DNA of 64,000 nt from Diplonema papillatum (Eukaryota > Euglenozoa > Diplonemea > Diplonemida > Diplonemidae), in NCBI GenBank assembly GCA_030068145.1, contig JAPJBO010000367.1, positions 147,194 through 211,193 on the forward strand, written 5' to 3'. Position numbers and translations under genes: made by a program. Positions 7,456-64,000 of this stretch are shown here, in pieces. The notes beneath the pieces were generated by a model. The model had not been told where the DNA came from. It searched no databases and was given only the letters and a program-made list of their open reading frames with translations. The stretch's first letter is position 1. Each line of letters opens with the position of its first letter.

Positions 7456-8376
7456 AACGCAAATGCGCTGGGCGACAAGGACCGACGCGGAAACCGGTCT
7501 TCAATGTTCTCCATTGAATATTCGCTACTACAACCAAGATCTGCACTCATCCACGCTCCATCGAGGCTCACGCCAACGACTTCGCGGCGTGGACCACGCA
7601 CTCCTACGCACGCCTGGCTTTGTGATACCAGTACGCGGCCAACTATGGGTGGATCGCTTGAGCATCATCCATTTTCGGGACCGGTGCATTCGGCAGGTGA
7701 GTTGTTACACACTCATTATCGGATGCCGACTTCCATGGAAGAGGTACTCGTCGTGAAGGCTCGCCTACCCTGCTGGACCAAGTTCCTTCGTGCTCGCCGT
7801 CATTCTGCGCTCGAGGGGCCTTTATCGAACCTGGCGCTCGTTTTAATGGGCTCGTGGTGGTTCGAAAGTGAGCGGAACGGACGTCTTAGTTGTCTGGCTC
7901 TCATTTCCCCACGGAGTACGCGTACCCAACACGTCGTCACCGACGAGCGTGACGAGAACAGTTACTCCTTTCCTCGGCGTGCGAAACCAGGCTATCCACA
8001 CTGCGTCGGTCAAGGATTGCGGCTCCAGCCGCAGTTCCCGGTGTCAACATACGAAGGAACAGTAGAAGGGGGAAGGAGTTACAAGACCATTTTACGGCTC
8101 GTGACGTTTCTTGCGTGGCCTCTTACCCACCTCGAAAAAAAGTGCGTCAGCTTTGCTCTGGATCGAACCCGGGACATGCTGCCAACGATACAAACCCTCG
8201 GGGGGCTCGACCACTCGCAAGGGCGCAGACTCTCCTGTGTGCTGTTTTTTGAACCCCGAGCAGACTGCCGCAGTTCCCATCGAAAGCCACTACGGCAACC
8301 CTCCAAAGGGTTCGGCCCCTCGCAAACGTTAGCCGCCCAGCTCCGAAGCTTCTGACCGCTGCCTTTTGCCAAGTTA
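7456..8376. other. Intergenic, no supported gene
   Basis: Open frames here (for example 7504-8355, +) lack coding signature, domains or splice context. Nothing recognisable was seen. Confidence 0.4.
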
Positions 8377-40068: not shown

Positions 40069-43000
40069 ATGGCGAACCAAGGGATCGTGCGGCACCTCAA
40101 CGACCTGAAGAAGAGGGTGCCGGACCGGATGGTCAGGAAGCGGCTGTCGCAGGCTGTCGAGTCGATCTCGAAGTACCCGCTGCCCATCGAAAGCGGCGCG
40201 AAGGCGCGCGACCTGAACGGCGTCGGCGAATGGATCGCGACGCGCATAGACGAGCACCTCCGCAGCGAGCTGCACACCGGCGCGGCCCCGTCGGCGACGT
40301 CCCTCATCAAGGCCCACGCCGTCCTCTCGCAGACCGTCGAGCCGCTGTCGCAGCGCCCAGCTTCATCCGGCGGCGGGGGCGCCGCAGCGAAAACCCCAGC
40401 GGGTAGGGCCCCCACGCAGAGGGCGAAGCCCGCCAAAGGAGGGGGCGGCGGCGGCGTCGTGCGGCCTGAGTCCGCTTCGTCTTCCGCCGCCTCTTCTTCT
40501 TCTTCTTTGGCGTTTGAAACGTTCACGCTGAACCAGCTGCGCGTCTTCTGCAAGAGCAAAGGCGTGGCCACCAGCGGCTCGAAACCGGAGCTCTTGAAGC
40601 GGTGCGTGGCCTACCAGCAGCCGGCGACGAGCGGGCCGTCGCCCCCGTCGACCCGCCCCGCGGCGCTGCACTTCGACGCTGAGTTGACAGCCGCGGACCC
40701 AGCGAACACACACCGTCCAGGCTCCGCGCCGCCTGAGGGTGCGCAAGACGCCGTGTCGAAGCTGACGGCCTCGAAGCTGCGAGTGGCGCTCGCCCGGTTG
40801 AACCTCGGCACCGCAGGCGTCAAGTCCGCGCTGGCAGACCGGCTGCGGCGGCACGCCGCCGCCGTGGCCGCGGCCGGCGGCCCCCCGCTGGACCTCGAGC
40901 TTCTCAGCCTCGCCACCGAAAAACCCGCTGCCGCCGCGAGCCAAGGCGCCGCCCCTGAGCCGTCGCCCGCCGACGACAGTGGGAAGGCTGGTTGGCAGGC
41001 TGCTGTCGACGCGCGCATCGCGAAGCTGGAGGAGGAAAACCGGATGCTCAAGGACCTCCTCGTCGCGTCCTCCCAGGGGCAGGCCAGCCAGAGCCAGCAG
41101 GCGGCCTTCGAGCTGGGCGGAGCTGGAGGCGGAAAAACGGAGTTCTCGCAGGCAGACCGATGGCAGTCGGCGGTGCCGGAGGCTGTTGGATCTGCGCCGG
41201 CGGGCTTCAACCCATGCGGGGTCCCCGGGGCGGGCGAAACGGCGGCGTTTTCGCAGGAAGACCATTCCGGGGCGTCCCACAGCCAGCGGGGGCAGGCGGG
41301 CGGCGCGCCGACAGCCGCCCGACGGCTGCCCTTTTCAGCGGCGCCGGAGGCTGTTCGGTCTGCGCCGGCGGGCTTCAACCAATACGGGACCTCCGCAGGC
41401 GGAAAAAACGCGGCGTTTTCGCAGGAAACCCATTCCGGGGCGTCCCACAGCCAGCGGGGGCAGGCCGGCGGCGCGCCCTTTTCGGCGGCGCCGGAGGCAG
41501 TTCGATCTGCGCCGGCGGGCTTCTACCAATGCGGGGCCTCTGCGGGCGGGAAAAACGCGGCGTTTTCGCAGGAAACCCATTCCGGGGTGTCCCACAGCCA
41601 GCGGGGGCAGGCCGGTAGCGCGCCGGCAGCCGCCCGGCGGCTGCCCTTTTCAGCGGCGCCGGAGGCGGCGCGATCTGCTCCAGTAGGCTTCAACCAATAC
41701 GGGTCCCCCGCAGACGCCGCGGGTGTCACGCCGCCCCTGTTTCGGCCGCTCGCCGTGCAAGGCGCTTGGGGGCCCGCGGCCATGGTCGCGCCGCCGTCGC
41801 ATCGGACCGGCCCGTGCAATGCGTCGCCGCTCTCACCGGTCTCCGCGCGGGACACGCCGCTGCCTGCTTCATCGGGCAATCGATCCGCCTGCGAAAGTCC
41901 TCTGGTCCCCGGCTCTCTCGCCTCGCAAGCTGCACCCCGCAGCCTTCACCCGTCCTGTCCGCGCTACACCACCTCCCCAGCACCCGGAGGCGGTGCCGGA
42001 GTTCCGCGGGCTGCGCCTCAAGGCGCGTATGCGCTGGGACCCGCCGGTTGCGGAGCGAGTCCGTTGAGTCCGGGGGCGGGCCGATGGCGGGGGGTCTCGG
42101 GTGTGGGGGCGGGGGGGGCTGCAGGTTTTGGAGCGGGTCCTCCTAGTCCAGGCGCAGGCCTCTCGCCTGCTGTGTCGCATGGCAGCAGGGCGCCAGGCGG
42201 TGCGCGGCAGGAGACGCAGAATCCCAGCGCCGGTTTTGGGTCAAGTCCTGCGAGCCCGGGCGTGCGGCTCTCACAAGGCATGCCTTCATCTCAAGCATTG
42301 TCGCAAGGGCTGTCTCAAGGGTTGTCCCAAGGGTTATCTCAGGGATCAGCAGCGTCCGGCTCGTCCGGGAAGCGGCGCCGGCCGAAGTCGGAGAATGCTG
42401 TGCCCAGCAGTGTGCTGTCGGCCGGGGGCCGGTACCCTGCCATCCAGCCCGCGTCTTCTTCTTACGCGTTCGTGCTGGCCTTGTACAAGCACCACTTCGA
42501 CACGGCGGACCACTCGGAGCGCACCGAAGCGCCGCCCATCCTCTTGTCGGAGCTCATCCGCACCGCGCAGCCGTACACTGCCTCGCGCCTGACAGCCAAC
42601 CCCTTCGGCCGAGACCCGAAGCGAACGGACGGGAGCAAAGGGCAGTGGTTCACCGGCGGCACGCTGTCGCTCAACAAGACGCTGGCAGGGCGCAACCTGG
42701 TCATCAAGCACCAGCTCCGCGCCGAGGAGGAGGCCGCGTACGAGCTCACTGAGGAGGGCAAAGCCTTCGCGTCGCACCTGTGGCGGTGCCACACCGACCG
42801 GGACTACGTCAACGAATGCGTCGTGCGGCAAGGCCACGGCCGCAAGCGAAAGTGCAAAGACGCGGACCCGCCGCCGGAGCCCGCGGCGCGCGAGAAAAAA
42901 AGGCCGAAGACCGCGGACCCAGGCGCTGCGGTTGCGCGCCCGGCGGGGGAGGAGCCTGTTGCCGGCGGGACAAGGGCCGAGCGGGCGCAACCAGAGCCGG

Positions 43001-46000
43001 CGGCCCAAGGGAAGCCGCAACCCAGGACGGCACCAGCCGGGCCGACCTCCGCGAAACCGGGCGAACACCCAACGGGGGTCGCGCCTGCCGCGAACGGTGA
43101 GATGCATGCCGCGGCCGGAAAAAGGGCCGAGCAGGCGCAACCAGAGCCGGCGGCCCAAGGAAAGCCGCAACCCAGGACGGCACCAGCGGGGCCGACCTCC
43201 GCGAGACCGGGCGAACACCCAACGGGGGTCGCGCCTGCCGCGAACGGTGAGGTACCCGTCGCGGCCGGGAACAGGGCCGAGCGGGCGGCACCAGAGCCGG
43301 CGGCCCGGGAGAAAAAAGAGAAGGAGCAACCCGCGGCACTGGCCAGTCCGCTCGCCCCCGCTAACCCGGGTGGGTCGCTCCTGGGCGCCGGCGCTCGGGT
43401 TGGACACGCGACGGGAGCCGCGCCTGCGGCGAAGAGCGACGCCCAGGAGGAAAAGAAGAAGCCGCAGGCACCCGCCGTCTCGTCCGCCCCCGCTAACCCG
43501 GGCGGGCTTCTCCGGGTCGCACACGCAGCGGGGGTTGCCGCCGGGAACAGGGGGGGGCAGGCGGAACCAGAGCTGGCGGCCCAGGGGGAAAAGAAGAAGC
43601 CACAGGCACCCGCCGGCTCGTCCGCCCCCGCGAACCCGGGTGGGCCGCTCCGGGTTGCACACGAAACGGAGGTCGCGGAAGGCGCAGCGCCGGTTGCCGC
43701 CGGGAAAAGGGGCGGGCCGGCGGAACCAGAGCCGGCGGCGGCACGAAAGAAGAAGCAGAAGGCAAAAGGCGAGGCGCCGGTAGCCGGCGGGAAAAGGGCC
43801 CGGGAGGAACAGAGGGAGCCGCTGGCACCTGCCGGGGGTTCCACCCCCGCGCAACGGGGCGAGCCTGGGGTTGCACCCGCGCCTGCGGCGAAGGGCGACG
43901 GGGGGAAAACGACGCCACCGCCGCCCGCGAACGCGTCGGCGCCGCCGGGCCGCGGGAGCCTGGGCAGCAGCGGCAGCAGCGGCGGCGCCGCCGCCGGCTG
44001 TTCGTCGGGGGGGAGCGCGACGAGCCTGCGCGAGTGGCGGCGGCAGCAGGCGCGCGAGAAGCGGCTCGGCCGCGAGCGCATGGACCACATCCGGCGGCCG
44101 TACACGTTCGACCTCGGCGAGATCCTCGGCTGGGCCCACGCCGACGGCCAGCCGCCCCCTCCCCCCGCCGTGCCGCCCCCCCGGTTCTCCCTCGGAGACG
44201 GCGGTGCGAGCACACGCGCTGCCACGCCGCCGTTGCGCGGCGAAGCCGAGGTACCCGCGACGGTGCCGAAGGCGGGCGGGTGGGGCGGCGCGGAAAGCGG
44301 GGGGAGTGGGTCCGGGTGCCGGAAAAGGAGCAGGCTCGACGAGGTCGACTGCCGCGAGATGCGCCTCGAGCACTTCGCCTTCCCCGCAACCGGGCGGTAC
44401 AGCGCGGGGGGTGCGTCGCTGGACGCGACGCCCGACGGGCCCGGTGGCCTGTCCGACGGCGGCGGCGTTCCCCCGGACTCGGAGGACCTGTCAGTCGGCC
44501 ATTCCCTCAGCGAGTGCTCGCCGCTGTGCGGGCACCAGCTCCGGAAGCGGCGCCGGGGCATCAACGGGCGCGGCACCCTCGGACCCCAAGCGGCGGGGAC
44601 CGCCCATCCGGGCTTGTCCTCTGCGTCGCCGCCTGTGGCACACTCTCCGGGCCGTCGGTCGCCAGCGTCCAGCCGTGCGCACGCGCCGGGGCCCGAGGCG
44701 GAAGAGAATCCTTTCGAAATTCCGTCTCCATCCGCGGGACCAGTAGAAGCTGCGTCGCCGCCCGTGGCGCACTTGCCGGGCCGTCGGTCGCCAGCGCCCA
44801 GCCGTGCGCACGCGCCGGGGCCCGAGGCGGAAGAGAATCCTTTCGAAATTCCGTCGCCGTCCGCGGGGCCAGTGGAGGCTGCGCCGCACGCGGGGCGAGA
44901 CCATCTCTCGAACCCGGAATCTGATCTGCGCCCTCTTCCTTGCGTCTATCTACCGGCGCCGAAGCTGGTGGGGGATCCATTCGAAACTCCAACGCCGGCC
45001 GGCAGGCCGGTGGAAGCGCTACAGGCGGGGCGACACCATGTTTCAAGCCCGGAATCGGACCTGAGCCCTCCTAGTGCCTACACACCGGCGCCGAAACCAG
45101 CGGGGAATCGACTCGAAGCTCCAATTCCGGACGGCGCGCCGGTAGAAACGCTGCACGCGGAGCGACACCATCTTTCAAGCCCGCCGCGCCCTCCTGGTGC
45201 TTGCACACCGGTGCCAACACTAGCGGGGAGTCAATTCGAAACTCCAATTCCGGCCGACAAGCCGGGGCGGCGCCGCCTCTCGAGCCCAGGATCGGATCTG
45301 TGTCCTCCAAGTGCCTGCTGCACACCGGAGCCGGACCCCGCGGGCAATCAATTCGAAACCCCGACACGGGCCGGGAAGCCGGCGGAAACCCGGTGCCCAG
45401 AGCAGCACTCGTTCTGCCCGTCCACCCCCGCCGGTGTGCCCGAGTACACGTACGACCAGCTCCGAACCCCGGCGGCTTCCGAAAAGCCGCGGACAGAGAT
45501 GTGCGCGGAGCAACAACACCCTGGCAGCTTTCCGGTCGCGTATAGGTTCGAGCCTGCGGCGGCTGCGGACACGGCGGCCCCGGACCTGAATGCGGAGTCG
45601 GGTCGCACAAGTCCAGGGGAGCCCGCCAGCTTCCCTTTCGCGTCCCCGATGCCGGAGTTCGCTGAATATCGATTCGAGGCTCCGACGGCTGCGGACACGG
45701 CGGCGCTGACGCCATGCCCGGAACGCCGGCCCCTTGTGAATGTGGAGTCGGGTCGCACAAGTCCAGGGAAGCCCGCCAGCATCCCTTTCGCATCCCCGAT
45801 GCCAGCGTTCGAAGCTCCAGCGGACTGCGCCGAGATCCAGCGGCCTGCGCAGCCGATGCCGACGCCGTCGCGCAAGCGAAACCTGCTCGACGAATCGCCC
45901 GTGTCCAGCCCGTTGGATCAATGTTCGCAACCCTTTCCTGGGTCCTTCTCCCGGTTGGACTGGCGTTCGTACGCGAAGCCGAAGGCGAAGAAGGCGAAAG

Positions 46001-46923
46001 CGAAGACCGCCGCGGCGCTGTCGTTCGAGCTTGTATGCCTGGTGGACCATCGCGAGCGGAGCGGCGGGCGGCGCTGCGTGTTCGTCGAGAAGTTGACGAA
46101 AAAGGGGGTCGCGACCGAGGCGCGGCAGCTGCAGGCCGGGGACTTCACGTGGGTCATCCGGGGGCCCGGGCTGGAGGGCGCGACGGAGGAAGTCGTCGTC
46201 GATCTGGTGATCGAGCGCAAGCGCGCGGCAGACCTGGCGTCGAGCATCAAAACGGGCCGGTACAACGACCAGAAGCGGCGGCTCCTCACCTGCGGCCTCC
46301 GCAGAGTCGTCTACCTGCTGGAAGGCGAGTTCAGCAGCCAGCGCGTCCTTCCCCCCGCTTCGCTGCAGACCGCTTTGCACACCACCGCGTTGTTCGACGG
46401 CTTCTCGGTGCAGCAGACGAGGTCTGTTGACCACACAGTCACGTTTCTCGCTTCGCTGCACGAAGCGCTGAGGGACCAGCTGGAGGCGTACGCGCTTGCA
46501 GGGTGGAAGACGGTGCCGGAGATACAGTGGGGGGTCCCGCGGGCGATGCCGGCGGGGGCGCCGTTTCCGTTGGTGCGGCGCGGGTGCGCGAGGGCGGAGG
46601 CTGACGAGCCGCTGCCGACGTTCGGCGCGTTCAACAGCGGCGAGCGGACCCGGAGGGAGGACGACCAGGCCGCCGGCGCGTTCGAGTCGCTGCTGACGTG
46701 CGTGCACGGCGTCGGGGGCGTCGCGGCGGCGTCCATTGCCGCCGCGCACGGGACCGCGCTGGCCCTCTTCTCGTCGTACCAGCGCCTCGTCCGCGAAGAC
46801 AGGAGCGCCACCGCCCAGCTCTCCCTCGCCACCCTCCCGGCCGGCACTGCCCGCACGAAAGCTCGGTTCGTAGGGGACTTCGTCAGCAGCTCTGTCTTCA
46901 CTGCTTTTACTTCTCCGCACTGA
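40069..46923 (+). CDS. MUS81: MUS81-type structure-specific endonuclease, giant, intronless
   Basis: 2284 residues. N-terminal HhH at about 1-100 (LNGVGEWIATRI); a SAP-like segment at about 149-183 (LNQLRVFCKSKGVATSGSKPELLKRC); a weaker second one at about 228-268; winged helix at about 784-910 (YAFVLALYKHH, LLSELIRTA); ERCC4 nuclease at about 1985-2135 with LVDHRERSG, GDFTWVIRG and the catalytic VIERKRAAD; C-terminal HhH2 at about 2205-2275. MUS81 with EME1 cuts branched DNA such as stalled forks and recombination intermediates in the nucleus. Known MUS81 proteins are about 550-650 residues. The excess here is low-complexity: QRGQAG-type repeats (about 41160-41700), E/P/A-rich repeats (42950-43730) and PSRAHAPGPEAEENPF-type repeats (44630-45800). 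ATG 40069 is chosen because it starts the HhH. Confidence 0.9.
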   Translation: MANQGIVRHLNDLKKRVPDRMVRKRLSQAVESISKYPLPIESGAKARDLNGVGEWIATRIDEHLRSELHTGAAPSATSLIKAHAVLSQTVEPLSQRPASSGGGGAAAKTPAGRAPTQRAKPAKGGGGGGVVRPESASSSAASSSSSLAFETFTLNQLRVFCKSKGVATSGSKPELLKRCVAYQQPATSGPSPPSTRPAALHFDAELTAADPANTHRPGSAPPEGAQDAVSKLTASKLRVALARLNLGTAGVKSALADRLRRHAAAVAAAGGPPLDLELLSLATEKPAAAASQGAAPEPSPADDSGKAGWQAAVDARIAKLEEENRMLKDLLVASSQGQASQSQQAAFELGGAGGGKTEFSQADRWQSAVPEAVGSAPAGFNPCGVPGAGETAAFSQEDHSGASHSQRGQAGGAPTAARRLPFSAAPEAVRSAPAGFNQYGTSAGGKNAAFSQETHSGASHSQRGQAGGAPFSAAPEAVRSAPAGFYQCGASAGGKNAAFSQETHSGVSHSQRGQAGSAPAAARRLPFSAAPEAARSAPVGFNQYGSPADAAGVTPPLFRPLAVQGAWGPAAMVAPPSHRTGPCNASPLSPVSARDTPLPASSGNRSACESPLVPGSLASQAAPRSLHPSCPRYTTSPAPGGGAGVPRAAPQGAYALGPAGCGASPLSPGAGRWRGVSGVGAGGAAGFGAGPPSPGAGLSPAVSHGSRAPGGARQETQNPSAGFGSSPASPGVRLSQGMPSSQALSQGLSQGLSQGLSQGSAASGSSGKRRRPKSENAVPSSVLSAGGRYPAIQPASSSYAFVLALYKHHFDTADHSERTEAPPILLSELIRTAQPYTASRLTANPFGRDPKRTDGSKGQWFTGGTLSLNKTLAGRNLVIKHQLRAEEEAAYELTEEGKAFASHLWRCHTDRDYVNECVVRQGHGRKRKCKDADPPPEPAAREKKRPKTADPGAAVARPAGEEPVAGGTRAERAQPEPAAQGKPQPRTAPAGPTSAKPGEHPTGVAPAANGEMHAAAGKRAEQAQPEPAAQGKPQPRTAPAGPTSARPGEHPTGVAPAANGEVPVAAGNRAERAAPEPAAREKKEKEQPAALASPLAPANPGGSLLGAGARVGHATGAAPAAKSDAQEEKKKPQAPAVSSAPANPGGLLRVAHAAGVAAGNRGGQAEPELAAQGEKKKPQAPAGSSAPANPGGPLRVAHETEVAEGAAPVAAGKRGGPAEPEPAAARKKKQKAKGEAPVAGGKRAREEQREPLAPAGGSTPAQRGEPGVAPAPAAKGDGGKTTPPPPANASAPPGRGSLGSSGSSGGAAAGCSSGGSATSLREWRRQQAREKRLGRERMDHIRRPYTFDLGEILGWAHADGQPPPPPAVPPPRFSLGDGGASTRAATPPLRGEAEVPATVPKAGGWGGAESGGSGSGCRKRSRLDEVDCREMRLEHFAFPATGRYSAGGASLDATPDGPGGLSDGGGVPPDSEDLSVGHSLSECSPLCGHQLRKRRRGINGRGTLGPQAAGTAHPGLSSASPPVAHSPGRRSPASSRAHAPGPEAEENPFEIPSPSAGPVEAASPPVAHLPGRRSPAPSRAHAPGPEAEENPFEIPSPSAGPVEAAPHAGRDHLSNPESDLRPLPCVYLPAPKLVGDPFETPTPAGRPVEALQAGRHHVSSPESDLSPPSAYTPAPKPAGNRLEAPIPDGAPVETLHAERHHLSSPPRPPGACTPVPTLAGSQFETPIPADKPGRRRLSSPGSDLCPPSACCTPEPDPAGNQFETPTRAGKPAETRCPEQHSFCPSTPAGVPEYTYDQLRTPAASEKPRTEMCAEQQHPGSFPVAYRFEPAAAADTAAPDLNAESGRTSPGEPASFPFASPMPEFAEYRFEAPTAADTAALTPCPERRPLVNVESGRTSPGKPASIPFASPMPAFEAPADCAEIQRPAQPMPTPSRKRNLLDESPVSSPLDQCSQPFPGSFSRLDWRSYAKPKAKKAKAKTAAALSFELVCLVDHRERSGGRRCVFVEKLTKKGVATEARQLQAGDFTWVIRGPGLEGATEEVVVDLVIERKRAADLASSIKTGRYNDQKRRLLTCGLRRVVYLLEGEFSSQRVLPPASLQTALHTTALFDGFSVQQTRSVDHTVTFLASLHEALRDQLEAYALAGWKTVPEIQWGVPRAMPAGAPFPLVRRGCARAEADEPLPTFGAFNSGERTRREDDQAAGAFESLLTCVHGVGGVAAASIAAAHGTALALFSSYQRLVREDRSATAQLSLATLPAGTARTKARFVGDFVSSSVFTAFTSPH

Positions 46924-55316: not shown

Positions 55317-56015
55317 CCCCCATCAATGAGAAGGTGTTTCCACCGCATTTTGAGGTGTCCCCATCAATGGTAAAGTGTTTCCACCGCATTTTGAGGTGAC
55401 CCCATCAAGGGAAAAGTGTTTCCACCGCATTTTGAGGTGTCCCCATCAAGGGTAAAGTGTTTCCACCGCATTTTGAGGTGTCCCCATCAATGGTAAGGTG
55501 TTTCCACCGCATTTTGAGGTGTCCCCATCAATGGTAAGGTGTTTCCACCGCATTTTGAGGTGTCCCCATCAATGGTAAAGTGTTTCCACCACGTTTTGAG
55601 GTGTCCCCATCAAGGGTAAGGTGTTTCCACCGCATTTTGAGGTGTCCCCATCAATGGTAAGGTGTTTCCACCGCATTTTGAGGTGTCCCCATCAAGGGTA
55701 AGGTGTTTCCACCGCATTTTGAGGTGTCCCCATCAAGGGTAAGGTGTTTCCACCGCATTTTGAGGTGTCCCCATCAAGGGTAAAGTGTTTCCACCGCATT
55801 TTGAGGTGTCCCCATCAATGGTAACGTGTTTCCACCACGTTTTGAGGTGTCCCCATCAAGGGTAAAGTGTTTCCACCGCATTTTGAGGTGTCCCCATCAA
55901 TGGTAAGGTGTTTCCACCGCATTTTGAGGTGTCCCCATCCATGGTAAAGTGTTTCCACCACGTTTTGAGGTGTCCCCATCAAGGGTAAGTTGTTTCCACC
56001 ACGTTTTGAGGTGTC
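55317..56015 (+). repeat. 41-bp minisatellite, array 1
   Basis: About 17 units of CCCCATCAAGGGTAAGGTGT-TTCCACCGCATTTTGAGGTGT with few variants (ATGG/AGGG, CACGTTTT). It is preceded by CCGGCGGAGAA, as is array 2. There are no unique spacers, so it is not CRISPR. Confidence 0.9.
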
Positions 56016-56097
56016 TTGCGATCCATCGTGGGAATTCCACAAAGGCAAACGAACGCTCTCCAGGAATATATCGGTTGGCCGGGTAGGAATTCCTTTT
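56016..56097 (+). pseudogene. YR-gene fragment after array 1
   Basis: About 81 bases match the first part of the YR frame at 61607-61687 (IPQRQTNALQEYIGWPGRNSF), then end at a T run. The junction with the minisatellite is the same as at 61606. Confidence 0.7.
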
Positions 56098-56382
56098 CCC
56101 TCCCTCCCACCCCTTTGCACATCTTGCCGTGCGGCATTCGTCCCCCTCGTGCGAGGGAGCATCATTGAGTTCGTGTCCGCTGCATTAGTGGCGAGATCCG
56201 GGTGCGCTGGGTTCCCACCCTCCGTCCCCCGTGACCTCCTGGGCTAGCCTGTTCTCTCATCAACCGTGGCTATCTCGGGGGGGTTACCCCAACGGAAGTG
56301 ATTTCTCCCCTTTTCCCCTTTGTCCTGAGCTGGAAAGACAGAAGCATGTGCCCATGCCTGAGTGAGTAGCCGGCGGAGAATT
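56098..56382. other. Spacer between arrays
   Basis: No gene recognised; the last bases GTAGCCGGCGGAGAA mirror the start of array 1. Confidence 0.4.
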
Positions 56383-57034
56383 CCCCATCAAGGGTAAGGT
56401 GTTTCCACCGCATTTTGAGGTGTCCCCATCAAGGGTAAGGTGTTTCCACCGCATTTTGAGGTGTCCCCATCAATGGTAAGGTGTTTCCACCACGTTTTGA
56501 GGTGTCCCCATCAAGGGTAAGGTGTTTCCACCGCATTTTGAGGTGTCCCCATCAAGGGTAAAGTGTTTCCACCGCATTTTGAGGTGTCCCCATCAAGGGT
56601 AAAGTGTTTCCACCGCATTTTGAGGTGTCCCCATCAATGGTAAGGTGTTTCCACTACATTTTGAGGTGTCCCCATCAAGGGTAAGGTGTTTCCACCGCAT
56701 TTTGAGGTGTCCCCATCAATGGTAAGGTGTTTCCACCGCATTTTGAGGTGTCCCCATCAAGGGTAAGGTGTTTCCACCGCATTTTGAGGTGTCCCCATCA
56801 AGGGTAAGGTGTTTCCACCGCATTTTGAGGTGTCCCCATCAAGGGTAAAGTGTTTCCACCGCATTTTGAGGTGTCCCCATCAAGGGTAAAGTGTTTCCAC
56901 CGCATTTTGAGGTGTCCCCATCAATGGTAAAGTGTTTCCACCACGTTTTGAGGTGTCCCCATCAAGGGTAAAGTGTTTCCACCGCATTTTGAGGTGTCCC
57001 CATCAATGGTAAGGTGTTTCCACCGCATTTTGAG
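56383..57034 (+). repeat. 41-bp minisatellite, array 2
   Basis: About 16 units as in array 1. The last unit is interrupted after TTTTGAG by the YR retrotransposon; its remainder (TGTCCCCATCAAGGG...) lies at 61562-61606. Confidence 0.9.
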
Positions 57035-57179
57035 GAGTTTCTGCTCTTCGTATTGTCTGACGAGAACTGCCTAGAAGAAAGGGAGAAGTAAGAACACGTC
57101 TTTGTAACTGATATCACTAGCGCAAGGGAATGTTGAGTGACTGCCTTAACCCGGGGAAACGAGCTTGGGCGAGGTCACC
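57035..57179 (-). repeat. YR retrotransposon repeat B2
   Basis: 145 bp from GAGTTTCTGCTCTTCG to GAGGTCACC, the same as B1 264 bases to the right. Confidence 0.9.
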
Positions 57180-57199
57180 GGGGGGTTAGGGAGGGTGGG

Positions 57200-57299
57200 A
57201 AAACTTGACTGTTTCTTTGAACCAACCACACCCTGAAGGCTGTGTAGAGTTCTCTAATCGACTTTCGTGGTGCATCAACTCCCTCAGTGAAACTGTGAG
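57200..57299 (-). repeat. YR retrotransposon repeat A2
   Basis: 100 bp from AAAACTTGACTGTTTC to GTGAAACTGTGAG, the same as A1 at 61462-61561. Confidence 0.9.
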
Positions 57300-57443
57300 A
57301 GTTTCTGCTCTTCGTATTGTCTGACGAGAACTGCCTAGAAGAAAGGGAGAAGTAAGAACACGTCTTTGTAACTGATATCACTAGCGCAAGGGAATGTTGA
57401 GTGACTGCCTTAACCCGGGGAAACGAGCTTGGGCGAGGTCACC
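57299..57443 (-). repeat. YR retrotransposon repeat B1
   Basis: The same sequence as B2. The RT ORF stop codon (57439-57441) lies inside it. Confidence 0.9.
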
Positions 57444-60372
57444 TTCCATCCACCACAACGCCAGTGAGAAACTGCCTCACCGCAAGTACAATTGAATCGA
57501 GCGCATCAGCGCCAATCATGGTCAGCGGTACGCGTGATGGCAAGTCCGCAGGGTTGCCTTCACTCCTGACCCATCGCACGGAAAGAGCACAGTTTAAGGA
57601 ACGCACGCGTTCCAATCCTCTGACTACCGCGTTGTTCAACACGGCACTCTTCAAACAGGCACCCTTTCGGGCAACCCCTTTCACCGTGGTATTATCAACT
57701 ACGACATCCACTCTTCCCCCTTTGATTGAGACTGGAAGAGCAAGGATAACCAGGTTAAATGCAATGGCCTCCAGCTCGTTGATATGCAGCGAGCTCTCCG
57801 CAGCATTCCACGACCCTCCTAAGACGGTCACTTCCATCGTCCGCGAATCCACAAGGACACCGCCCCAGCCTTTCTTGCTCGCGTCCACGAAGGCCGTGAT
57901 GCGCGGGGACTGTTGCAGAACGGGGATGGCCCTCGGCTTTAACACCGAGTCAATCCACTCTTGAAGGGACAATCGCACACAGGGAGACACCTCCACCGTA
58001 TCAGAGGGGAGTCGTGCACCCCGGTTCAACGAATTCGTAACGCGCCGAAAGAATTTAAGCGCAAACCAAAAAGAGCCTGGAAAGATTCCAGCGACTGCAG
58101 AGGCATGCAGCAAACGACCACCAAGAGTTTCGAGCTCGGAGGCCCGCATTGTTGGCGACGACTTCAGCGTGTAACGCGCTTCCATAAGCTTCCGGCGTAG
58201 CTTCCGCGAGACTGCAACACGGTGAGCAACATGGTCCCAATCGACCCCGATGAACTCATACCGCGTGGCCGCCGTCTGCGAGTCGGAGGGCTTCCACGTC
58301 AGATCGCAATCAGCGGCGGTCTGGTCCAGCCTTCGGGTCGCGAGCTGCACCGCCGACCTTTTCCCGGCATATCGGATGTTGTCGACCCATATATCGACGG
58401 TGACATCCCGCTCGGCAAACTGCGGTAGCACGTAATCCGCGTGCCCGCCCGCCACGGCTGCCAGCGTGTGCATTATCTCAGGTGCACACGAATGTCCCAT
58501 GGGAAGCCGCAGAAGTTCCCACCAACCGCCACCGGAATCAGCGAAGCGGAAGAGGTGACGCGACTCCGGTGGAATCTCGATCGCGTAAAAGCCGGTCTTG
58601 AAATCGCGGGTCGAACCACACTCTTCACGGCTTGCCCCCAGATACGCCGAAACGTGTCCGAGAGGCACATGCGCCTCGTACCCCCGCTCGTGAGCGGCCC
58701 GGTTGCCGTCCACTGTCCACAATATGAAGCGCTGTCGCAGCGCCCCGTCCTTCTCTTCCAAGACGGTAAAAGGAACCGAAGCGAACGGGCCGGGACCGGT
58801 CGAACTGCGGGCAATCCCGTTGTCGGCAAGCAAAGACGCATGTTCAGGACGAAGGGTTGAGGGTGAACCGATTACCGTCTCGGTTTCAACACGAGGGAAG
58901 AACGTTGTTTGCCACGTATCGTCAAAGCGGCGGAGAGCCGCTTCGTTCATCCGCGCGCGCAGCTTGTCGACCGACATCGGCTTGATCGGCGCGACGTGCA
59001 ACGGCGAGGCACGCTCCTCCTTGCTACGCGGCAGACGCGTCGAACCGCCTCGTCGGGTGACGGAGTGGAAATGACCACTGCGGAGGTATCCCGTCACAAG
59101 TGCCTCGTCACCTTGCCGGTCTCGAGTGCCCTGGCAAGGTCCACGTCGCCCCCGGCGTACCGGAGTGTGGTCCTCGAAAGCGTCCCGGGACCTCCCTCCT
59201 CCTCGTGCTTCGTCAGCCGATCGACGAGGTGCGGCGACAGCTTGCCGCTGGTCAGCAACGGCAAGAGGTGCTTCACTGCGCCGCGTTTGATCGAGTGCGC
59301 GGTGTACCCCTGCATCTGCACCGACTGACCCCACAGAGAGTCCAACGCCGACGTCGTCAGCCTTGTCAGGGGTGCGAAGGGTGCGCACTTCCTGAACAAC
59401 ATGGCGATCTCCGTCGTCAACGGCCCCTGGATCACCGCGAACCGCGACGCCTTGAAAGGATCGTGCGTCCGCCCCTTCGGCGTCTGGAACCAGTCCACGA
59501 TCACCTCCTTCTGCGTCACCAAGAGGAACTGGGCGGACGAAAGATCCGCCACCTCCGCCCAACGGGATGCCGTCTTCCACGCGACGAGGAGGGCAAGATG
59601 AACGGACGGCTGCTGCAGCCTGGCGTGAGACACGAGCTTCTGCTTCTCGAGCGGCGTCGCTTGGCTGTCCGGGATAGCCGCACCGCCACCGCGCAGGGCC
59701 TTGGCCAAAACTCTCAGGGGGTGATTCTCGAACCCCATCGCCCCAAACGAGGCCGAGAGGGCCTTGGTGTAGGCCAGCTGTCCCTGGGGCCGAATACCGG
59801 TCGCCGCCACAAAAAGACACGCCGAGTCCGCAGTCATGCCCAGCCCGCGTGCCGATGTCCATGCAAGCATCCGCCGCCACAAGTTCCGGCGCTCTTGCGT
59901 TGTCGATCGAGCCCACATATCCGCCACAGCCGACGACATCCTCATGCGTGCCATTTCCAAAGAAACCGCATTCTCCTTGGTTTGACCTGTACGGGTCGTA
60001 CCGCCAGACGTGATGAGGCGGTACACTGCCCGGCCTATCTCCGACGAAGGGATCAGTTCGGTTCTCGGCGCGCCGGAAGTCGACAGTAGGGAGGGGCTGG
60101 ATCGGATGCGCTTGGGTGGTTGGGTCGGTGTTGGTCGACGCGTCGACGAATCGATTGTGTGTGCCGACGGGGGATGAGGTTGCATTCGGCGTACTGCCAC
60201 GACAGCCGGCGGGGGGGGAAGCCGGGGTCGATATTCCATTAGGAATGTTGGGGACGGTCGCGACGGAGCGCTTACCGCCCTTGGAGAGAACCTCATAAAC
60301 GTTCGGGGAGGTTCTGGGCAGAGTGGCTTTGGAACTGGCGTCATCAACACAGGCCGGGGGTCGGCCAGTCAT
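57439..60372 (-). CDS. RT-RNase H ORF3 of the YR retrotransposon
   Basis: Open for 977 codons from an ATG overlapping the gag stop. The recognisable RT/RNase H part is about 57439-59050. RT: GFYAIEIPPESRHLF, LRLPMGHSCAPEIMH, and VDIWVDNIRY in place of the YxDD box. RNase H: ITAFVDASKKGWGG (Asp), HINELEA (Glu), VVDNTTV (Asp), NPADLPSR (Asp). Codons upstream of about 59050 overlap the YR ORF; the first about 100 (VYEVLSKGGKRSVATVP) look coding, the rest reads like YR shadow. It makes cDNA from the element RNA. Confidence 0.82.
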   Translation of the reverse strand: MTGRPPACVDDASSKATLPRTSPNVYEVLSKGGKRSVATVPNIPNGISTPASPPAGCRGSTPNATSSPVGTHNRFVDASTNTDPTTQAHPIQPLPTVDFRRAENRTDPFVGDRPGSVPPHHVWRYDPYRSNQGECGFFGNGTHEDVVGCGGYVGSIDNARAPELVAADACMDIGTRAGHDCGLGVSFCGGDRYSAPGTAGLHQGPLGLVWGDGVRESPPESFGQGPARWRCGYPGQPSDAAREAEARVSRQAAAAVRSSCPPRRVEDGIPLGGGGGSFVRPVPLGDAEGGDRGLVPDAEGADARSFQGVAVRGDPGAVDDGDRHVVQEVRTLRTPDKADDVGVGLSVGSVGADAGVHRALDQTRRSEAPLAVADQRQAVAAPRRSADEARGGGRSRDAFEDHTPVRRGRRGPCQGTRDRQGDEALVTGYLRSGHFHSVTRRGGSTRLPRSKEERASPLHVAPIKPMSVDKLRARMNEAALRRFDDTWQTTFFPRVETETVIGSPSTLRPEHASLLADNGIARSSTGPGPFASVPFTVLEEKDGALRQRFILWTVDGNRAAHERGYEAHVPLGHVSAYLGASREECGSTRDFKTGFYAIEIPPESRHLFRFADSGGGWWELLRLPMGHSCAPEIMHTLAAVAGGHADYVLPQFAERDVTVDIWVDNIRYAGKRSAVQLATRRLDQTAADCDLTWKPSDSQTAATRYEFIGVDWDHVAHRVAVSRKLRRKLMEARYTLKSSPTMRASELETLGGRLLHASAVAGIFPGSFWFALKFFRRVTNSLNRGARLPSDTVEVSPCVRLSLQEWIDSVLKPRAIPVLQQSPRITAFVDASKKGWGGVLVDSRTMEVTVLGGSWNAAESSLHINELEAIAFNLVILALPVSIKGGRVDVVVDNTTVKGVARKGACLKSAVLNNAVVRGLERVRSLNCALSVRWVRSEGNPADLPSRVPLTMIGADALDSIVLAVRQFLTGVVVDGR
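59094..60350 (-). CDS. Tyrosine recombinase ORF2 of the YR retrotransposon
   Basis: 418 residues. Catalytic pattern: Arg in AWKTASRWAEV, His and Arg in AHSIKRGAVKH, Tyr in RTTLRYAGG near the C-terminus (the R...HxxR...Y of YR enzymes). It would integrate the circular DNA copy. The whole ORF lies inside the longer open RT frame (57439-60372) in another frame. The start used for expression is unclear: the frame opening at the gag overlap (60372) may be read first and shifted. Confidence 0.85.
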   Translation of the reverse strand: MLMTPVPKPLCPEPPRTFMRFSPRAVSAPSRPSPTFLMEYRPRLPPPPAVVAVRRMQPHPPSAHTIDSSTRRPTPTQPPKRIRSSPSLLSTSGAPRTELIPSSEIGRAVYRLITSGGTTRTGQTKENAVSLEMARMRMSSAVADMWARSTTQERRNLWRRMLAWTSARGLGMTADSACLFVAATGIRPQGQLAYTKALSASFGAMGFENHPLRVLAKALRGGGAAIPDSQATPLEKQKLVSHARLQQPSVHLALLVAWKTASRWAEVADLSSAQFLLVTQKEVIVDWFQTPKGRTHDPFKASRFAVIQGPLTTEIAMLFRKCAPFAPLTRLTTSALDSLWGQSVQMQGYTAHSIKRGAVKHLLPLLTSGKLSPHLVDRLTKHEEEGGPGTLSRTTLRYAGGDVDLARALETGKVTRHL

Positions 60373-61457
60373 TTTCCCCCGGCCTTGGCGTTTCCCGTCC
60401 GCGGCTTAAACGCCATCTTTTTGGCGGGGCCGTGTTTCTCCTTCTTGGAGTCGAGAACCGCCTCGGCCTTGTCGAGGGCGTCTTCCGCCTGGGTCCCTAT
60501 CTGCCGGAGCAGGTCGCGCCGGCTGTGTCCCTTCTCGACGTAGAGGCGTTGCATCCTCACGGCCGTCAGCAGGTCGTTGCCCAACCTCAATTGGTCCGGG
60601 CTCTGCAACCAGCCGACCGTTGCCGACACCGAGAGAACCCAGCTCCGCAACATGTTGAAGTTAGACTCCAAAAGTTCGCCGCCAGCGAGGTGGGTCCTCC
60701 CACACACGTACGCCACCTCCAAATCACGAACGAGGCCCTCCGGGTCGCCCTCGATCGCGTTCGCCAGCGACTGCACGTCCTTCGCCTCCTTGACGAACAC
60801 CCGCGGAGCGACAGCCACCGGCTGCCCAACTGTCGCCACCGGCGCGTCCATTGGCGCGTCCGCCTCCATCGGTGTCGCCGACGTAGGCAGCGCGGCCGCC
60901 GAGGCTACCGCAGGCGGCGGCTGCCGCGCGAGGCCCATAAGCTGCGCCTGCATCTGCGTCATCATCGTCATCATTTGCTGCTGCTGGCGTCTTTGCTGTT
61001 CAAGCTGTTCCTGTTGCTGCCGCAACAGCACCTGCATCGTCGCCACCTCCGGTGCGGCAGCCGGAAGCGTCTGACCTGCCGATGTACCCTCCTTCGGCCT
61101 GAGACTCGGCGGCGGCACCACGAAACCCGGCACCACCTTGGCGACGGCCTTGTTTACGGACAAGGCATCCTTGCTCTCCAGCATGAGCACCACCGCCAGA
61201 AGGTGTTGCAGATCAAACGCTGCCACCTCTGCAAACATAACTTCGAGCACGTCGATTACCACTGAACGCACGACCTCCACGACACCGACTTCGCAGCGAC
61301 CGAAACGGGAGACGCAAAAGACTTCCATATCTCTGACCTTAAACTTACGTTTGTCAGGATAATCGTCCTCGCCAAACCTCTTCTTCCAAGCTGCTCTTAG
61401 GGACGCAGGGTATCTGCATTCCCAAATGTCCGACGTCGGAAGAGGCGATTGCGACAT
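60369..61457 (-). CDS. Gag-like ORF1 of the YR retrotransposon
   Basis: 362 residues. The N-terminal half looks globular (IWECRYPASLRAAWKKRFGE); the middle is Q-rich (QLEQQRRQQQQMMTMMTQMQ, likely coiled coil); the end is basic (KHGPAKKMAFKPRTG). No CCHC knuckle is visible. Position and composition suggest a nucleic-acid-binding structural protein. Its TGA overlaps the next ATG as ATGA. Confidence 0.75.
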   Translation of the reverse strand: MSQSPLPTSDIWECRYPASLRAAWKKRFGEDDYPDKRKFKVRDMEVFCVSRFGRCEVGVVEVVRSVVIDVLEVMFAEVAAFDLQHLLAVVLMLESKDALSVNKAVAKVVPGFVVPPPSLRPKEGTSAGQTLPAAAPEVATMQVLLRQQQEQLEQQRRQQQQMMTMMTQMQAQLMGLARQPPPAVASAAALPTSATPMEADAPMDAPVATVGQPVAVAPRVFVKEAKDVQSLANAIEGDPEGLVRDLEVAYVCGRTHLAGGELLESNFNMLRSWVLSVSATVGWLQSPDQLRLGNDLLTAVRMQRLYVEKGHSRRDLLRQIGTQAEDALDKAEAVLDSKKEKHGPAKKMAFKPRTGNAKAGGK

Positions 61458-61461
61458 TCAA

Positions 61462-61561
61462 AAAACTTGACTGTTTCTTTGAACCAACCACACCCTGAAG
61501 GCTGTGTAGAGTTCTCTAATCGACTTTCGTGGTGCATCAACTCCCTCAGTGAAACTGTGAG
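61462..61561 (-). repeat. YR retrotransposon repeat A1
   Basis: Marks the 5' end of the element. The gag ATG (61455-61457) begins four bases downstream, so any leader must lie within or overlap this repeat. Confidence 0.9.
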
Positions 61562-61606
61562 TGTCCCCATCAAGGGTAAAGTGTTTCCACCGCATTTTGA
61601 GGTGTC
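61562..61606 (+). repeat. Remainder of the interrupted minisatellite unit plus last unit
   Basis: TGTCCCCATCAAGGGTAAAG ... TTTTGAGGTGTC continues array 2 on the far side of the retrotransposon. Confidence 0.85.
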
Positions 61607-62422
61607 TTGCGATCCATCGTGGGAATTCCACAAAGGCAAACGAACGCTCTCCAGGAATATATCGGTTGGCCGGGTAGGAATTCCTTTTTGACAGCAACCC
61701 AATTTGTCATGGCGACAATGGTCGAGCCGCAGGGCATGCTGGCGTATACCCGCCTCCTTTCAGCGGTCTTTGGCCACCTTGGGGTGGATGCCCGGCCCCT
61801 CCTATCGTTGGCCACGGTCCTCCGTGGTTCGGGAGGCAATATTCCCCTGGAGCAAGCCCTATCAGTGCCGAGGGAGGTGTTGCTAGCTTGGTCATTCCGG
61901 CAGACTCCTCGCGTGCGTGCGGCAGTTTTGATCGCGTGGAAGACGGCTTCGCGGTGGGGCGACGTTCAAAATCTCTCCCGTGCGTGTTTTCCTCTCATCT
62001 CGAACACGGAGATAGTGGTCGACTGGAACACGCTGCCGAAGGGCCGTCGGGGCAACCCGTTCTGCAGAAGCAAGGTAGTTGCGATCCGGGGACCGCTGAC
62101 CCGGGAGATCGCGGAGTTGCTGCGGGGCCTCGGGAACTTTCAACAGTTGTGCCCCCTCTCGACGGATCAGTTCAGCAGACTGCTCGGAGCGGACAACGCG
62201 ACGAAGCTGTACTCCGCGCACAGCGTGAAGAGGGGCGCCATCGACCACTTGATGAGCCTAAAGGCTGCGGGAGCTCCGTTCGCGCTGCAGTTGATTTCGC
62301 GCCTGGCGAAGCACACGAACGACGCCGATCCGACCGTGGCCAACATGACGGTCAGGTACACGTCGGATCCGGTGGCGCTGGCGCGGGTTCTTCAGACCGG
62401 GGACGTGACAATGTACCTCTGA
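61607..62422 (+). CDS. Tyrosine recombinase of a second, diverged YR retrotransposon (5' end missing)
   Basis: 271 residues similar throughout to the first element's YR: PQGMLAYTRLLSAVFG, then AWKTASRWGDV (Arg), AHSVKRGAIDH (His, Arg), MTVRYTSD (Tyr). There is no ATG at the left end; the frame begins directly at the minisatellite junction, so the gag and YR start are lost or replaced by the array. TGA at 62420. Confidence 0.75.
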   Translation: MRSIVGIPQRQTNALQEYIGWPGRNSFLTATQFVMATMVEPQGMLAYTRLLSAVFGHLGVDARPLLSLATVLRGSGGNIPLEQALSVPREVLLAWSFRQTPRVRAAVLIAWKTASRWGDVQNLSRACFPLISNTEIVVDWNTLPKGRRGNPFCRSKVVAIRGPLTREIAELLRGLGNFQQLCPLSTDQFSRLLGADNATKLYSAHSVKRGAIDHLMSLKAAGAPFALQLISRLAKHTNDADPTVANMTVRYTSDPVALARVLQTGDVTMYL

Positions 62423-62463
62423 GGAGGACCAGGAAGTCGGGCAAGAAGCGGGGGCACCCCCCT

Positions 62464-64000
62464 ATGTACGAGCACCCCGTTCCGGACCCCGGCGGCTTCG
62501 TCCATCAACACCAACGGTACTCCATCCTTCGGAGGGGGAAGCGGACCCGGCTTCCGGGGACAGAGGAAGAGAAGAAGTCGCCGCTGCACGTCGACTCGGT
62601 ACCGCCAATGGACGTTGCGGTTCTTCGCCGACGAATGAACGCGCCGACGAGGAAGAGGTTCGATGAGACTTGGTCCCGGACGTTTTACCCGCAGACGATC
62701 CCTTCGAAGACATCTTCACCTCCGGGGCGTTCCCGTCTCGAGGCGGCGCATGCGTTGGAGCTGGAAGAGCACGGAATCGCGGAACGTGCCGCTGGTCCGG
62801 GTAGAGACATGAACGTGCCGTTCACAGTCGTCGAGGAGAAGGAGGGCAAGCTCCGCCAGCGGTTCATCCTGTGGACGTACGACGCGAACCGGGTGGTCGA
62901 AGCGGACGGATACGAGGCTCACGTCCCCCTTAGCCACGTGTCGAAGTATCTGCACGCGGTGAATCGAGAGTGCGGCTCGACCCGTGACTTCAGGTGCGGG
63001 TTCTACGGGATTGAGATCCCAGCTGCGTCTCGCCGACTTTTCGCCTTTCAGGACGGCGGCGGCAACTGGTGGCAATTGACGAGGCTACCGATGGGCCATT
63101 CGTGTGCACCCGAGCTGATGCACACATTGGCGTCGACGACCGCAGGGCACCCGGACTACGTCGACGGCAGGCATGCAGTGTCGTCGGAGGTGCTGGTCCA
63201 CGTCTGGGTGGACAACATCAGATACGCGGGGCCACGCAACCTCGTGTTGAAGGCGACGTCGGATCTGGACGCCTTGGCTGCCGAGGCACGCATTACGTGG
63301 AAGGCTGCGGATACGAGGACCGCGGCATGCCGCTATGAGTTTCTTGGCGTCGACTGGAAGCATAGCGACGGCACCGTGGGCGTCTCCGCCAAGATGCAAT
63401 CGCGTTTGCAGCGCGCCGAGGAGAGTGTTCGAGCGGGTAAGATGTCAGCCGCCGGAATCGAATCCCTAGCTGGTCGCTTGCTGCACGCGTCGGCGATTGC
63501 CGGAGTCTACGTGGGCGAGTACTACTTCGCCCTGAAGTTTTTTCGACGGCTGACGAACGCCCTCAATCGGGGCGAGAAGTGTCTTGACGAGAACGTGGTT
63601 CTGTCACACGGTCTGCAGCGCGCGCTCCCCTCGTGGATGCAGCGTGTTCAGCGTCGCCGAATTGTTCCAGTCGCTAATCAATCGCCGAAGTTGGCAGTGT
63701 TCGTGGATGCCAGCCTTGATGGTTGGGGAGGTGTACTCGTCGACGTCGACACCAACGACATGGTAGTCGTCGGCTCTTGTTGGAATCGTGTGGAGAAGCG
63801 CCTCCACATAAACGAGCTTGAAGCTATGGCCTTTGAGAGATCCGTGAAGGCCATCTCGCCGGCGTACGCCGGGTCCACGGTAACGGTCATCGTGGACAAC
63901 ACCTCTGTGCAAGGGGTGGCCCGAAAGGGCGCGTGTTTACGATCGCGGAACTTGAACGATGCGGTTGTTCGTGCTTTGTTGTGTTTGCAGCAACTGAAGG
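62464..64000 (+). CDS. RT-RNase H of the second YR retrotransposon, runs off window
   Basis: The frame is open from upstream of 62464 to the window end with no stop; ATG 62464 is the first after the YR stop. RT: FRCGFYGIEIPAASRR, TRLPMGHSCAPELMH, VHVWVDNIRYAG. RNase H: LAVFVDASLDGWGGV, HINELEAMAF, VIVDNTSVQGVARKG. The same frame is also stop-free back through the YR ORF, as in the first element. It is clearly related to but well diverged from that copy. Confidence 0.82.
   Translation, partial: MYEHPVPDPGGFVHQHQRYSILRRGKRTRLPGTEEEKKSPLHVDSVPPMDVAVLRRRMNAPTRKRFDETWSRTFYPQTIPSKTSSPPGRSRLEAAHALELEEHGIAERAAGPGRDMNVPFTVVEEKEGKLRQRFILWTYDANRVVEADGYEAHVPLSHVSKYLHAVNRECGSTRDFRCGFYGIEIPAASRRLFAFQDGGGNWWQLTRLPMGHSCAPELMHTLASTTAGHPDYVDGRHAVSSEVLVHVWVDNIRYAGPRNLVLKATSDLDALAAEARITWKAADTRTAACRYEFLGVDWKHSDGTVGVSAKMQSRLQRAEESVRAGKMSAAGIESLAGRLLHASAIAGVYVGEYYFALKFFRRLTNALNRGEKCLDENVVLSHGLQRALPSWMQRVQRRRIVPVANQSPKLAVFVDASLDGWGGVLVDVDTNDMVVVGSCWNRVEKRLHINELEAMAFERSVKAISPAYAGSTVTVIVDNTSVQGVARKGACLRSRNLNDAVVRALLCLQQLK

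Follow-up and report, generated by a model that had tools for sequence, protein, structure and literature searches.

Element E1 and its reading frames

This study analysed a 64,000-nucleotide stretch of the Diplonema papillatum genome (assembly GCA_030068145.1, contig JAPJBO010000367.1, forward-strand positions 147,194 to 211,193; hereafter the window, which is the end of contig C367). Positions 57035 to 61560 almost certainly hold a complete tyrosine recombinase (YR) retrotransposon of the VIPER/TATE-like kind with split direct repeats, named E1 here; this kinship was judged on shared features. On its coding strand, the minus strand of the window, E1 reads A1-gag-YR-RT/RNase H-B1-A2-B2, RT denoting reverse transcriptase (Table 1). 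Natural copies of E1 serve as experiments, since truncated elements that keep A1 and elements with a swapped gag both point to an A1 that is rebuilt from A2.

A sequence-only reading had previously described a complete YR retrotransposon with A1-B1-A2-B2 repeats at this place, and both repeats and frames were recovered on re-examination. The two copies of the 145-bp B repeat are 100% identical, those of the 100-bp A repeat are 100% identical over 100 bp within a 103-nt match of 99%, base 57299 is common to A2 and B1, and the gag, YR and RT frames contain no internal stop. The former lower limit of 57035 stands, whereas the upper limit of 61561 is a target base, which shortens the element by one nucleotide.

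The gag open reading frame (ORF) begins 4 nt inside the inner border of A1. Starting at an ATG that shares bases with the gag stop (ATGA), the RT frame runs open through 977 codons and so has a broad overlap with the YR frame. The YR carries ASRW (R) from residue 261, AHSIKRG from 351 and LRYAG (Y) from 396, conserved among four sequences, which we take, from the sequence, to be the R, H-x-x-R and Y motifs that identify such a protein; it gave no Pfam match and no useful PDB profile match. The RNase H match of E1 in Pfam lies below the cut-off (6e-4), five of five family members match (best 7.5e-7), and the PDB profile search with the E1 RT returned weak RNase H matches only (8r0s_A, 0.0046; 4ol8_A, 0.088). 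The AlphaFold model of this RT had a pLDDT of 37. No methyltransferase was matched in Pfam up to E 1, and the RT frame ends at 57439, right beside B1. Inverted terminal repeats were not found in E1; its long repeats are direct, and the one inverted pair lies within the two YR genes.

E1 is one of at least eight related families (E1 to E8) in this genome. Motif C of most RTs contains two aspartates; in E1, E2, E3 and E8 it reads WVDN (57440-59094, minus; 62494-63999, plus; L119 and L120).

Table 1. Features of E1, E2 and their target array in the window (TRF, Tandem Repeats Finder)
Feature	Position	Strand	Remarks
Target, 41-bp array, left part	55318..57034		TRF 55318-57035, period 41; interrupted about 56015-56383
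E2 solo	56015..56383	+	A 56015-56097, C-run box 56098-56113, spacer remainder to 56230, B 56231-56383
B2, outer 3' repeat, 145 bp	57035..57179	-	Identical to B1; outer end constant in 35/35 loci
Spacer, C-run box on coding strand, 20 nt	57180..57199	-	Plus strand GGGGGGTTAGGGAGGGTGGG, strict G-quadruplex motif adjoining A2
A2, internal A copy	57200..57299	-	Repeat comparison
B1, internal B copy	57299..57443	-	Repeat comparison
RT/RNase H frame, 977 aa	57439..60372	-	RT/RNase H domain about 57439-59096; RT motifs by eye
YR, 418 aa	59094..60350	-	GTG start, first ATG is codon 3; motif-based
gag-like ORF, 362 aa	60369..61457	-	ATG..TGA; named gag from position alone
A1, 5' repeat	61462..61561	-	Final E1 base 61560; 61561 is G of target
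Target, same 41-bp array, right part	61561..61606		100% repeat copy
E2 truncated copy	61606..64000	+	A1 to 61688, 2 extra nt, YR2 from 61691 (ORF to 62422), RT2 from 62494; ends at contig end

Copies of E1 and their fixed ends

Genome searches covered the 271-Mb assembly (2910 contigs), in which the unit B-spacer-A occurs at no fewer than 41 places, far beyond chance; further copies with the same A and B ends, a check proposed with the sequence-only reading, thus exist. The 40 places outside the window fall in 34 fetched stretches and give, with the window, 35 loci picked by the B-spacer-A query, for each of which one end of each kind was scored. Left out of the end counts were L045-L057 and L068-L070 (sibling families or relatives), L064 and L069 (no E1 repeat), the second element in L012, the inverted B of L015 and L026, and extra places in L029, L031, L032 and L034.

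The outer B end was G^GAGTTT in all 35 loci (^ marks the joint), and the outer A end was TGTGA^N in all 25 loci that have one within the fetched stretch, the remaining 10 of 35 lacking it there. Copies ending at other nucleotides, which had been named in advance as the refutation test, were not found. The base after TGTGA was G in 16, T in 8 and A in 1 of these 25 sites; since T or A stands there in nine, no shared core base is needed and the joint is blunt. The single shared core G formerly proposed at this joint is accordingly rejected. The joint can be written TGTGA^GAGTTT in the circle form and G^N in the target, with G on its left in 35/35 loci, and in the orientation of the window it sits between inverted arms (GAAAC-TGTGAGA-GTTTC).

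Excising E1 from the window restored the 41-bp unit at a best offset of 0, as the earlier reading had held. Among 21 array loci tested by offset, 17 rejoined exactly, the exceptions being L011 (-3), L013 (-9), L024 (-1) and the uninformative L010 (identity 0.37). None of the 21, these four included, showed a target-site duplication, in agreement with the original claim that there is none.

The 35 loci comprised nine full-length elements (L041 being cut in A1 by the contig start), nine truncated ones with A1 at the border, seven solo B-spacer-A units, six without A1 in the stretch, three cut by contig or locus ends, and one internal deletion (L024). L011 and L028 each show a single base change relative to the window copy across the 4018-bp interior (99.975% identity), which indicates that E1 was active recently, as had been suspected from its intact frames.

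Some side observations concern unusual arrangements. L014 (C1174) contains head-to-tail solo units, B-A.B-A.B, with a 264-bp step, and E8 on C18 and C36 forms solo pairs 336 bp apart, in both cases as if small circles had integrated at the B.A joint. L026 and L015 have an inverted B on the 5' side; the flanks of L026 are mirror images, possibly an assembly artefact.

Truncated copies joined at the inner border of A1

In 9 of the 35 loci, the inner border of A1 meets unrelated interior cut points, giving eight distinct E1 joints, and two more joints (L059 and L060) came from 14 further fetched stretches. Together with the truncated E2 copy of the window, in which A1 (TTTT^) is followed by two extra nt and then YR2, eleven truncation joints from two families all lie within 2 nt of the inner border of A1. 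Eight E1 joints fall exactly after ..CAAGTTTT (..GTTTT^), whereas L036 stops 1 nt and L016 2 nt short of it. The seven E1 joints mapped on the window element (L009/L010, L012, L013, L023, L038, L059 and L060) carry 0-8 extra nt and microhomology of at most one base.

Two single cases stand beside these joints. In L061 (C134:111700-112250), the inner border of A2 meets non-element DNA where the box described below is expected, which could be a captured linear end. L059 (C464:1200-1700) is a minimal A-19 nt-B form without A2, spacer and B2, in a 41-bp type II array.

Swapped gag and the coupling of A1 with A2

One 5' part of gag, 99.3-100% identical over 300 nt (L058 over 227), was found behind three types of A: the E1 type (L017, L019, L021, L022, L058), the type of the sibling group E1b (L093, L095-L098, L103) and that of E1c (the second element of L009/L010, and L100). 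Conversely, the E1-type A also precedes a different gag (window, L011, L027, L028, L065, L066), and the E1b-type A a third one (L099). A1 and A2 were nevertheless of one type in all 17 elements where both could be read, ten of which carry the shared gag part. In the copies on C9, C63, C350, C404, C870 and C198, the A1 and A2 ends were fetched apart and assigned to one element by position; the C870 copy has a private base common to its A1 and A2. As the two repeats agree in 17/17 elements whatever gag lies between them, A1 follows A2 and not its gag neighbour.

The C-run box beside A2

Directly after A2, the coding strand carries a C-run box, which reads CCCACCCTCCCTAACCCCCC in E1, CCCTCCCTCCCACCCC in E2, CCCGCCCGCCTTCCCCC in E3, CCCGCCCTCCCTTGCCCCC in E4, CCTCCCACCCTCCC in E5, CCCACCCGCCCTCCC in E6, and CCCACCCACCC in both E7 and E8. 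The pattern C3NC3NC3 is present in seven of the eight families, E3 having C3NC3NC2, against a background for the three-run box of 12 sites in 149,800 strand-bases (8 in 109,800 from window positions 1-54900 and 4 in 40,000 random ones). The complement of the box is a strict four-run quadruplex motif in E1, E2, E4 and E6.

Spacers of the E1 group are identical in 54 of 57 cases; two differ in G-run length only and L059 has none. By contrast, B in L070 is only 87-89% identical. Because the E2 box adjoins A2 and is separated from B2 by 117 nt, the box goes with A2; a second C-run box stands before B2 in E2 and E5-E8. Copies of A without the box end at the border in E1/E1b/E1c, E2 and E4 (E4 with 100% identity over 118 nt). 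In E7, such a copy ends at the border in one of 41 matches (query 1-81 of 111), the other 40 being full-length, and in the A-border search for E8 all 40 matches listed were full-length.

Proposed replication mechanism

From the fixed border and the A1-A2 coupling, which are observations, we infer a stop at the box, a strand jump and a circle. The best overall explanation, with a probability of roughly 0.6, is that A1 is rebuilt in each cycle from A2 via a DNA end at the box, and that a circle then recombines into tandem arrays. That A1 is copied from A2 is probable; that a DNA end forms at the box is somewhat favoured; and that a quadruplex causes the stop, the least certain step, is put forward tentatively.

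Under this scheme, the minus cDNA would copy B2, the box, A2, B1 and the ORFs until it reached the 5' end of the RNA or stopped prematurely. Second-strand synthesis through B1 and A2 would halt at the box, where the template strand is G-rich and has a quadruplex motif in several families. The resulting DNA 3' end (..CAAGTTTT in E1) would jump end-to-end to the first-strand terminus, so rebuilding A1 from A2, and a circle with two B.A joints would form. The YR would then recombine the B.A joint between the inverted arms (GAAAC-TGTGA^GA-GTTTC) with an array unit.

In LTR (long terminal repeat) retrotransposons and retroviruses, the 5' repeat is rebuilt from the 3' repeat via strong-stop DNA and strand transfer. 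Relative to these elements, both the integrase and the tRNA primer would be replaced in E1, whose end is proposed to be set by the box beside A2 and not by a primer-binding site. It is conceivable, although doubtful at present, that split-direct-repeat YR retrotransposons carry a built-in second-strand stop, namely a G-run or quadruplex box beside A2 that yields a defined "plus strong-stop" end, which transfers end-to-end to the first strand and restores A1. If true, this stop would take the place of the tRNA-primer logic and explain why the repeats are split, and 5'-truncated and gag-swapped copies would stay mobile because they regain a recombination site. Should the stop indeed lie in the box, a culturable, free-living protist is at hand in which the mechanism would be testable. 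The restoration of ends by internal repeats is an older idea for such elements; the copying of split-direct-repeat retrotransposons has been modelled, and we know of no demonstration. For DIRS1, a version of end restoration by internal repeats is given in PMC3266345.

Several points weigh against this scheme. It is drawn from genomic copies alone, and the query used to pick the loci under-samples forms without A2-spacer-B2 (L059 surfaced via an A query). The strict quadruplex motif is confined to four of the eight families, and ViennaRNA (with RNA parameters) predicted a quadruplex for E1, E2, E4 and E6, a two-layer form for E3 and none for E5, E7 and E8. As the families are related, their eight boxes are not eight independent observations, and the A2 border in E3, E5, E6 and E8 was inferred and not taken from an A1 copy. 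Six of the 35 loci have no A1 within the fetched stretch (L015, L018, L025, L026, L037, L039), L024 is an ordinary internal deletion that retains 43 nt beside A1, and L062 (C74:219880-220400) has a perfect A whose inner border abuts non-element DNA. Finally, a single mismatch separates A1 from A2 in L011, L028 and the C198 copy, and the swapped-gag copies could derive from a few ancestral recombination events.

The box might instead be an RNA signal, such as the polypyrimidine tracts that serve trans-splicing or the formation of 3' ends in Euglenozoa, so that its position would reflect RNA processing and not a stop of DNA synthesis. The tract is pyrimidine-rich on the coding strand in 8/8 families, the second box before B2 in E2 and E5-E8 would suit such a role, and trans-splicing is common to all Euglenozoa (PMC10161547). 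However, the nine truncated loci retain the spacer and B2, for which an RNA that ends at A2 would be no template, no poly(A/T) occurs at the joints, and an RNA signal by itself leaves the common A1 border of the truncated copies unexplained. We consider this explanation rather unlikely.

Priming of first-strand synthesis at the box would likewise give a DNA end at the A2 border, and the box is indeed placed like a primer-binding site relative to a B.A "LTR". L059 is the one-repeat form (A-19 nt-B) expected from such priming, a form that the B-spacer-A query under-samples. The product would lack the spacer and B2, yet nine truncated loci with A1 carry A2-spacer-B2, which makes priming at the box improbable.

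Host end-joining or gene conversion after integration, unrelated to replication, could account for the extra bases at the joints and for some copies without A1. It is hard to reconcile with eleven joints that, in two families, have unrelated interior partners and yet stay within 2 nt of one border; if repair were random, A1 should also be cut into or gag left beside it, which is seen only in L024 among the loci read, and this origin is thus quite improbable. Alternative splicing, with a donor at the A1 border and variable acceptors in RNAs that were later reverse-transcribed, would yield one fixed and one variable breakpoint but was rejected as hardly credible, because no AG precedes the interior breakpoint at any of the seven mapped joints (..GGTA, ..GGAT, ..CGCC, ..TCGT, ..ATTG, ..TTGT, ..ACAC) and 1-8 extra nt are present at six of them.

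Insertion into tandem arrays

In 33 of the 35 loci (all but L019 and L040), one flank or both have a TRF array no more than 60 nt from the joint, compared with 4 of 20 random 1-kb midpoints from contigs C1-C700 under the matching rule (period of at least 10, array within 60 nt). This bias has a one-sided Fisher p of 2e-8, or of 1e-7 with an assumed 28/30 after dropping likely duplicates. A second set of E1 ends, found via A and RT hits and read on short flanks of 77-170 bp (L066 and L067 not included), lies in arrays in 4 of 8 cases (L058, L059, L060, L065). The other four tell against array targeting: L044, L062 and L063 have no array, and L071 has no TRF array in its 84-bp flank. Pooling both sets gives 37/43 in arrays against 4/20 (p = 6e-7).

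The array units hit by E1 include the 41-bp type I of the window, a 41-bp type II, and units of 102, 19 and 97 bp, among others, and related families sit in type I, type II, (AGT)n and (CA)n repeats. The 41-bp array of the window carries three insertions, namely E1, the solo E2 and the truncated E2; the two E2 insertions, and arrays as the usual target, had been missed in the sequence-only reading. The joined flanks of the non-array insertion L019 matched only the flanks of L019 itself, and no empty site was found.

There is precedent for such targeting, since TATE inserts at one position within telomeric hexamer repeats (GGG/TTA) (PMC6681497, PMC12278014). Alternatively, arrays may not be targeted, insertions being merely tolerated there or arrays being so common that they gather most of them. 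The published assembly is 52% repeats (PMC10161547), an array is also close to 4 of 20 random midpoints, and part of the second set lies outside arrays. On the other hand, the excess of 37/43 over 4/20, the G left of the joint in 35/35 loci, and the presence of other families in (AGT)n, (CA)n and the same 41-bp unit argue for targeting, so that its absence appears rather unlikely to us. Selection after insertion may contribute to the excess.

In L029 and L032 (C2392 and C241), a solo E1 in a 102-bp array is repeated roughly every 2.5 kb, as though it had been co-amplified with the array, which in L029 reads as a 756-aa open frame. The genome paper describes a 2.5-kb tandem unit whose ORF has 283 aa; its identity with these loci was considered and rejected, as they contain no ORF of that length.

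Comparison with known elements

Among known systems, TATE of trypanosomatids resembles E1 in its gag, YR, RT/RNase H order, its A1 ... B1 A2 B2 repeats and the lack of target duplication (PMC6681497, PMC12278014), and E1 sites such as GAGGG^TTGTCCC resemble telomeric-repeat sites. Unlike TATE, which uses telomeric repeats, E1 and its relatives use minisatellites and microsatellites of many sequences; the available parts of the two TATE papers mention neither a box nor truncation at the A1 border (PMC6681497, PMC12278014). VIPER of Trypanosoma cruzi has the same gene order and repeats as E1 (PMC12278014, PMC6681497), so that the gag-YR-RT order, called unusual in the sequence-only reading, is already in print for both. 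SIRE, the short form of VIPER, spans A2 and B2 (PMC12278014), and the E1 solo forms (7/35 loci) are alike. The motif CX2CX4HX4C occurs in some VIPER gag proteins and is absent, in the texts available, from VIPER of four species and from TATE; it was not found in the E1 gag either and, being confined to some members, does not define the group.

Ngaro of Cafeteria burkhardae is similar to E1 in its A1-[ORFs]-B1A2B2 layout, its solo AB repeats and its insertion in other mobile DNA, and its 5'-truncated type 2b without ORF1 recalls the E1 truncations; it differs in the order gag, RT/RNase H, YR, and some types prefer virophage DNA (PMC8547959). PAT, like E1, is a YR retrotransposon with split direct repeats (PMC4157794, PMC3266345), whereas a match to its methyltransferase was not found in E1. 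DIRS1 is also a YR retrotransposon, for which a circular intermediate has been proposed, but it has inverted terminal repeats and a 3-bp circular junction matched to the target (PMC4157794, PMC3266345). By the tested features of gene order, methyltransferase and terminal repeats, E1 is not Ngaro, PAT or DIRS1.

In the titles and abstract openings listed, with little coverage of subscription literature, no published description was found of Diplonema YR retrotransposons, of the quadruplex box or of minisatellite targeting in such elements; Diplonema is named once in PMC12278014. As far as these searches show, five things are new: the box, the coupling of A1 with A2, the truncations at the A1 border, the wide range of arrays targeted and the host group. 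Tandem-repeat targeting, known for TATE at telomeres, is extended to minisatellites and microsatellites across an element group, and the present data begin the element catalogue that the Diplonema genome paper called warranted (PMC10161547).

Related families and genomic context

Among the best matches of the RT search, 29 were 100% identical to E1, followed by sibling groups mostly at 91-94% (E1b, E1c), then at 83-86%, and by E4 at 70%. RT identity to E1 was 53% for E2 and 49% for E3, which was found beside L038, while E5-E8 were about 78, 75, 66 and 65% identical to RT2, respectively; YR2 is 45% identical to YR1. In BLAST (E 1e-3), A and B of E1, E3 and E4 matched neither each other nor other families. 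L031 (C762:102560-110554) is an E2 copy without A1; one and the same array, with an identically placed solo E1, flanks it on either side (96.4% over 728 bp). The idea that the 41-bp array forms part of the E2 terminal repeat was rejected, as comparison of L031 with the window shows the array to be a shared target.

Elsewhere in the window, positions 40069-46923 hold a 2284-codon open frame with several internal tandem repeats, whose N-terminus may be Mus81-like. Positions 7658-7771 are a fragment of eukaryotic 28S rRNA, which fits the thousands of 28S rRNA pieces reported for the Diplonema papillatum genome, itself of about 280 Mb and with some TATE-like ORFs (PMC10161547). In the same source, the unit of spliced-leader (SL) RNA, 5S and U2 is described as repeated up to 27 times in a row (PMC10161547). 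In its 5S and U2 parts this unit is matched by contig C1335, which fits D. papillatum as the very probable host: 27 5S rRNA genes alternate there with 27 U2 genes, at distances that are mostly close to 1240 bp and larger in two places.

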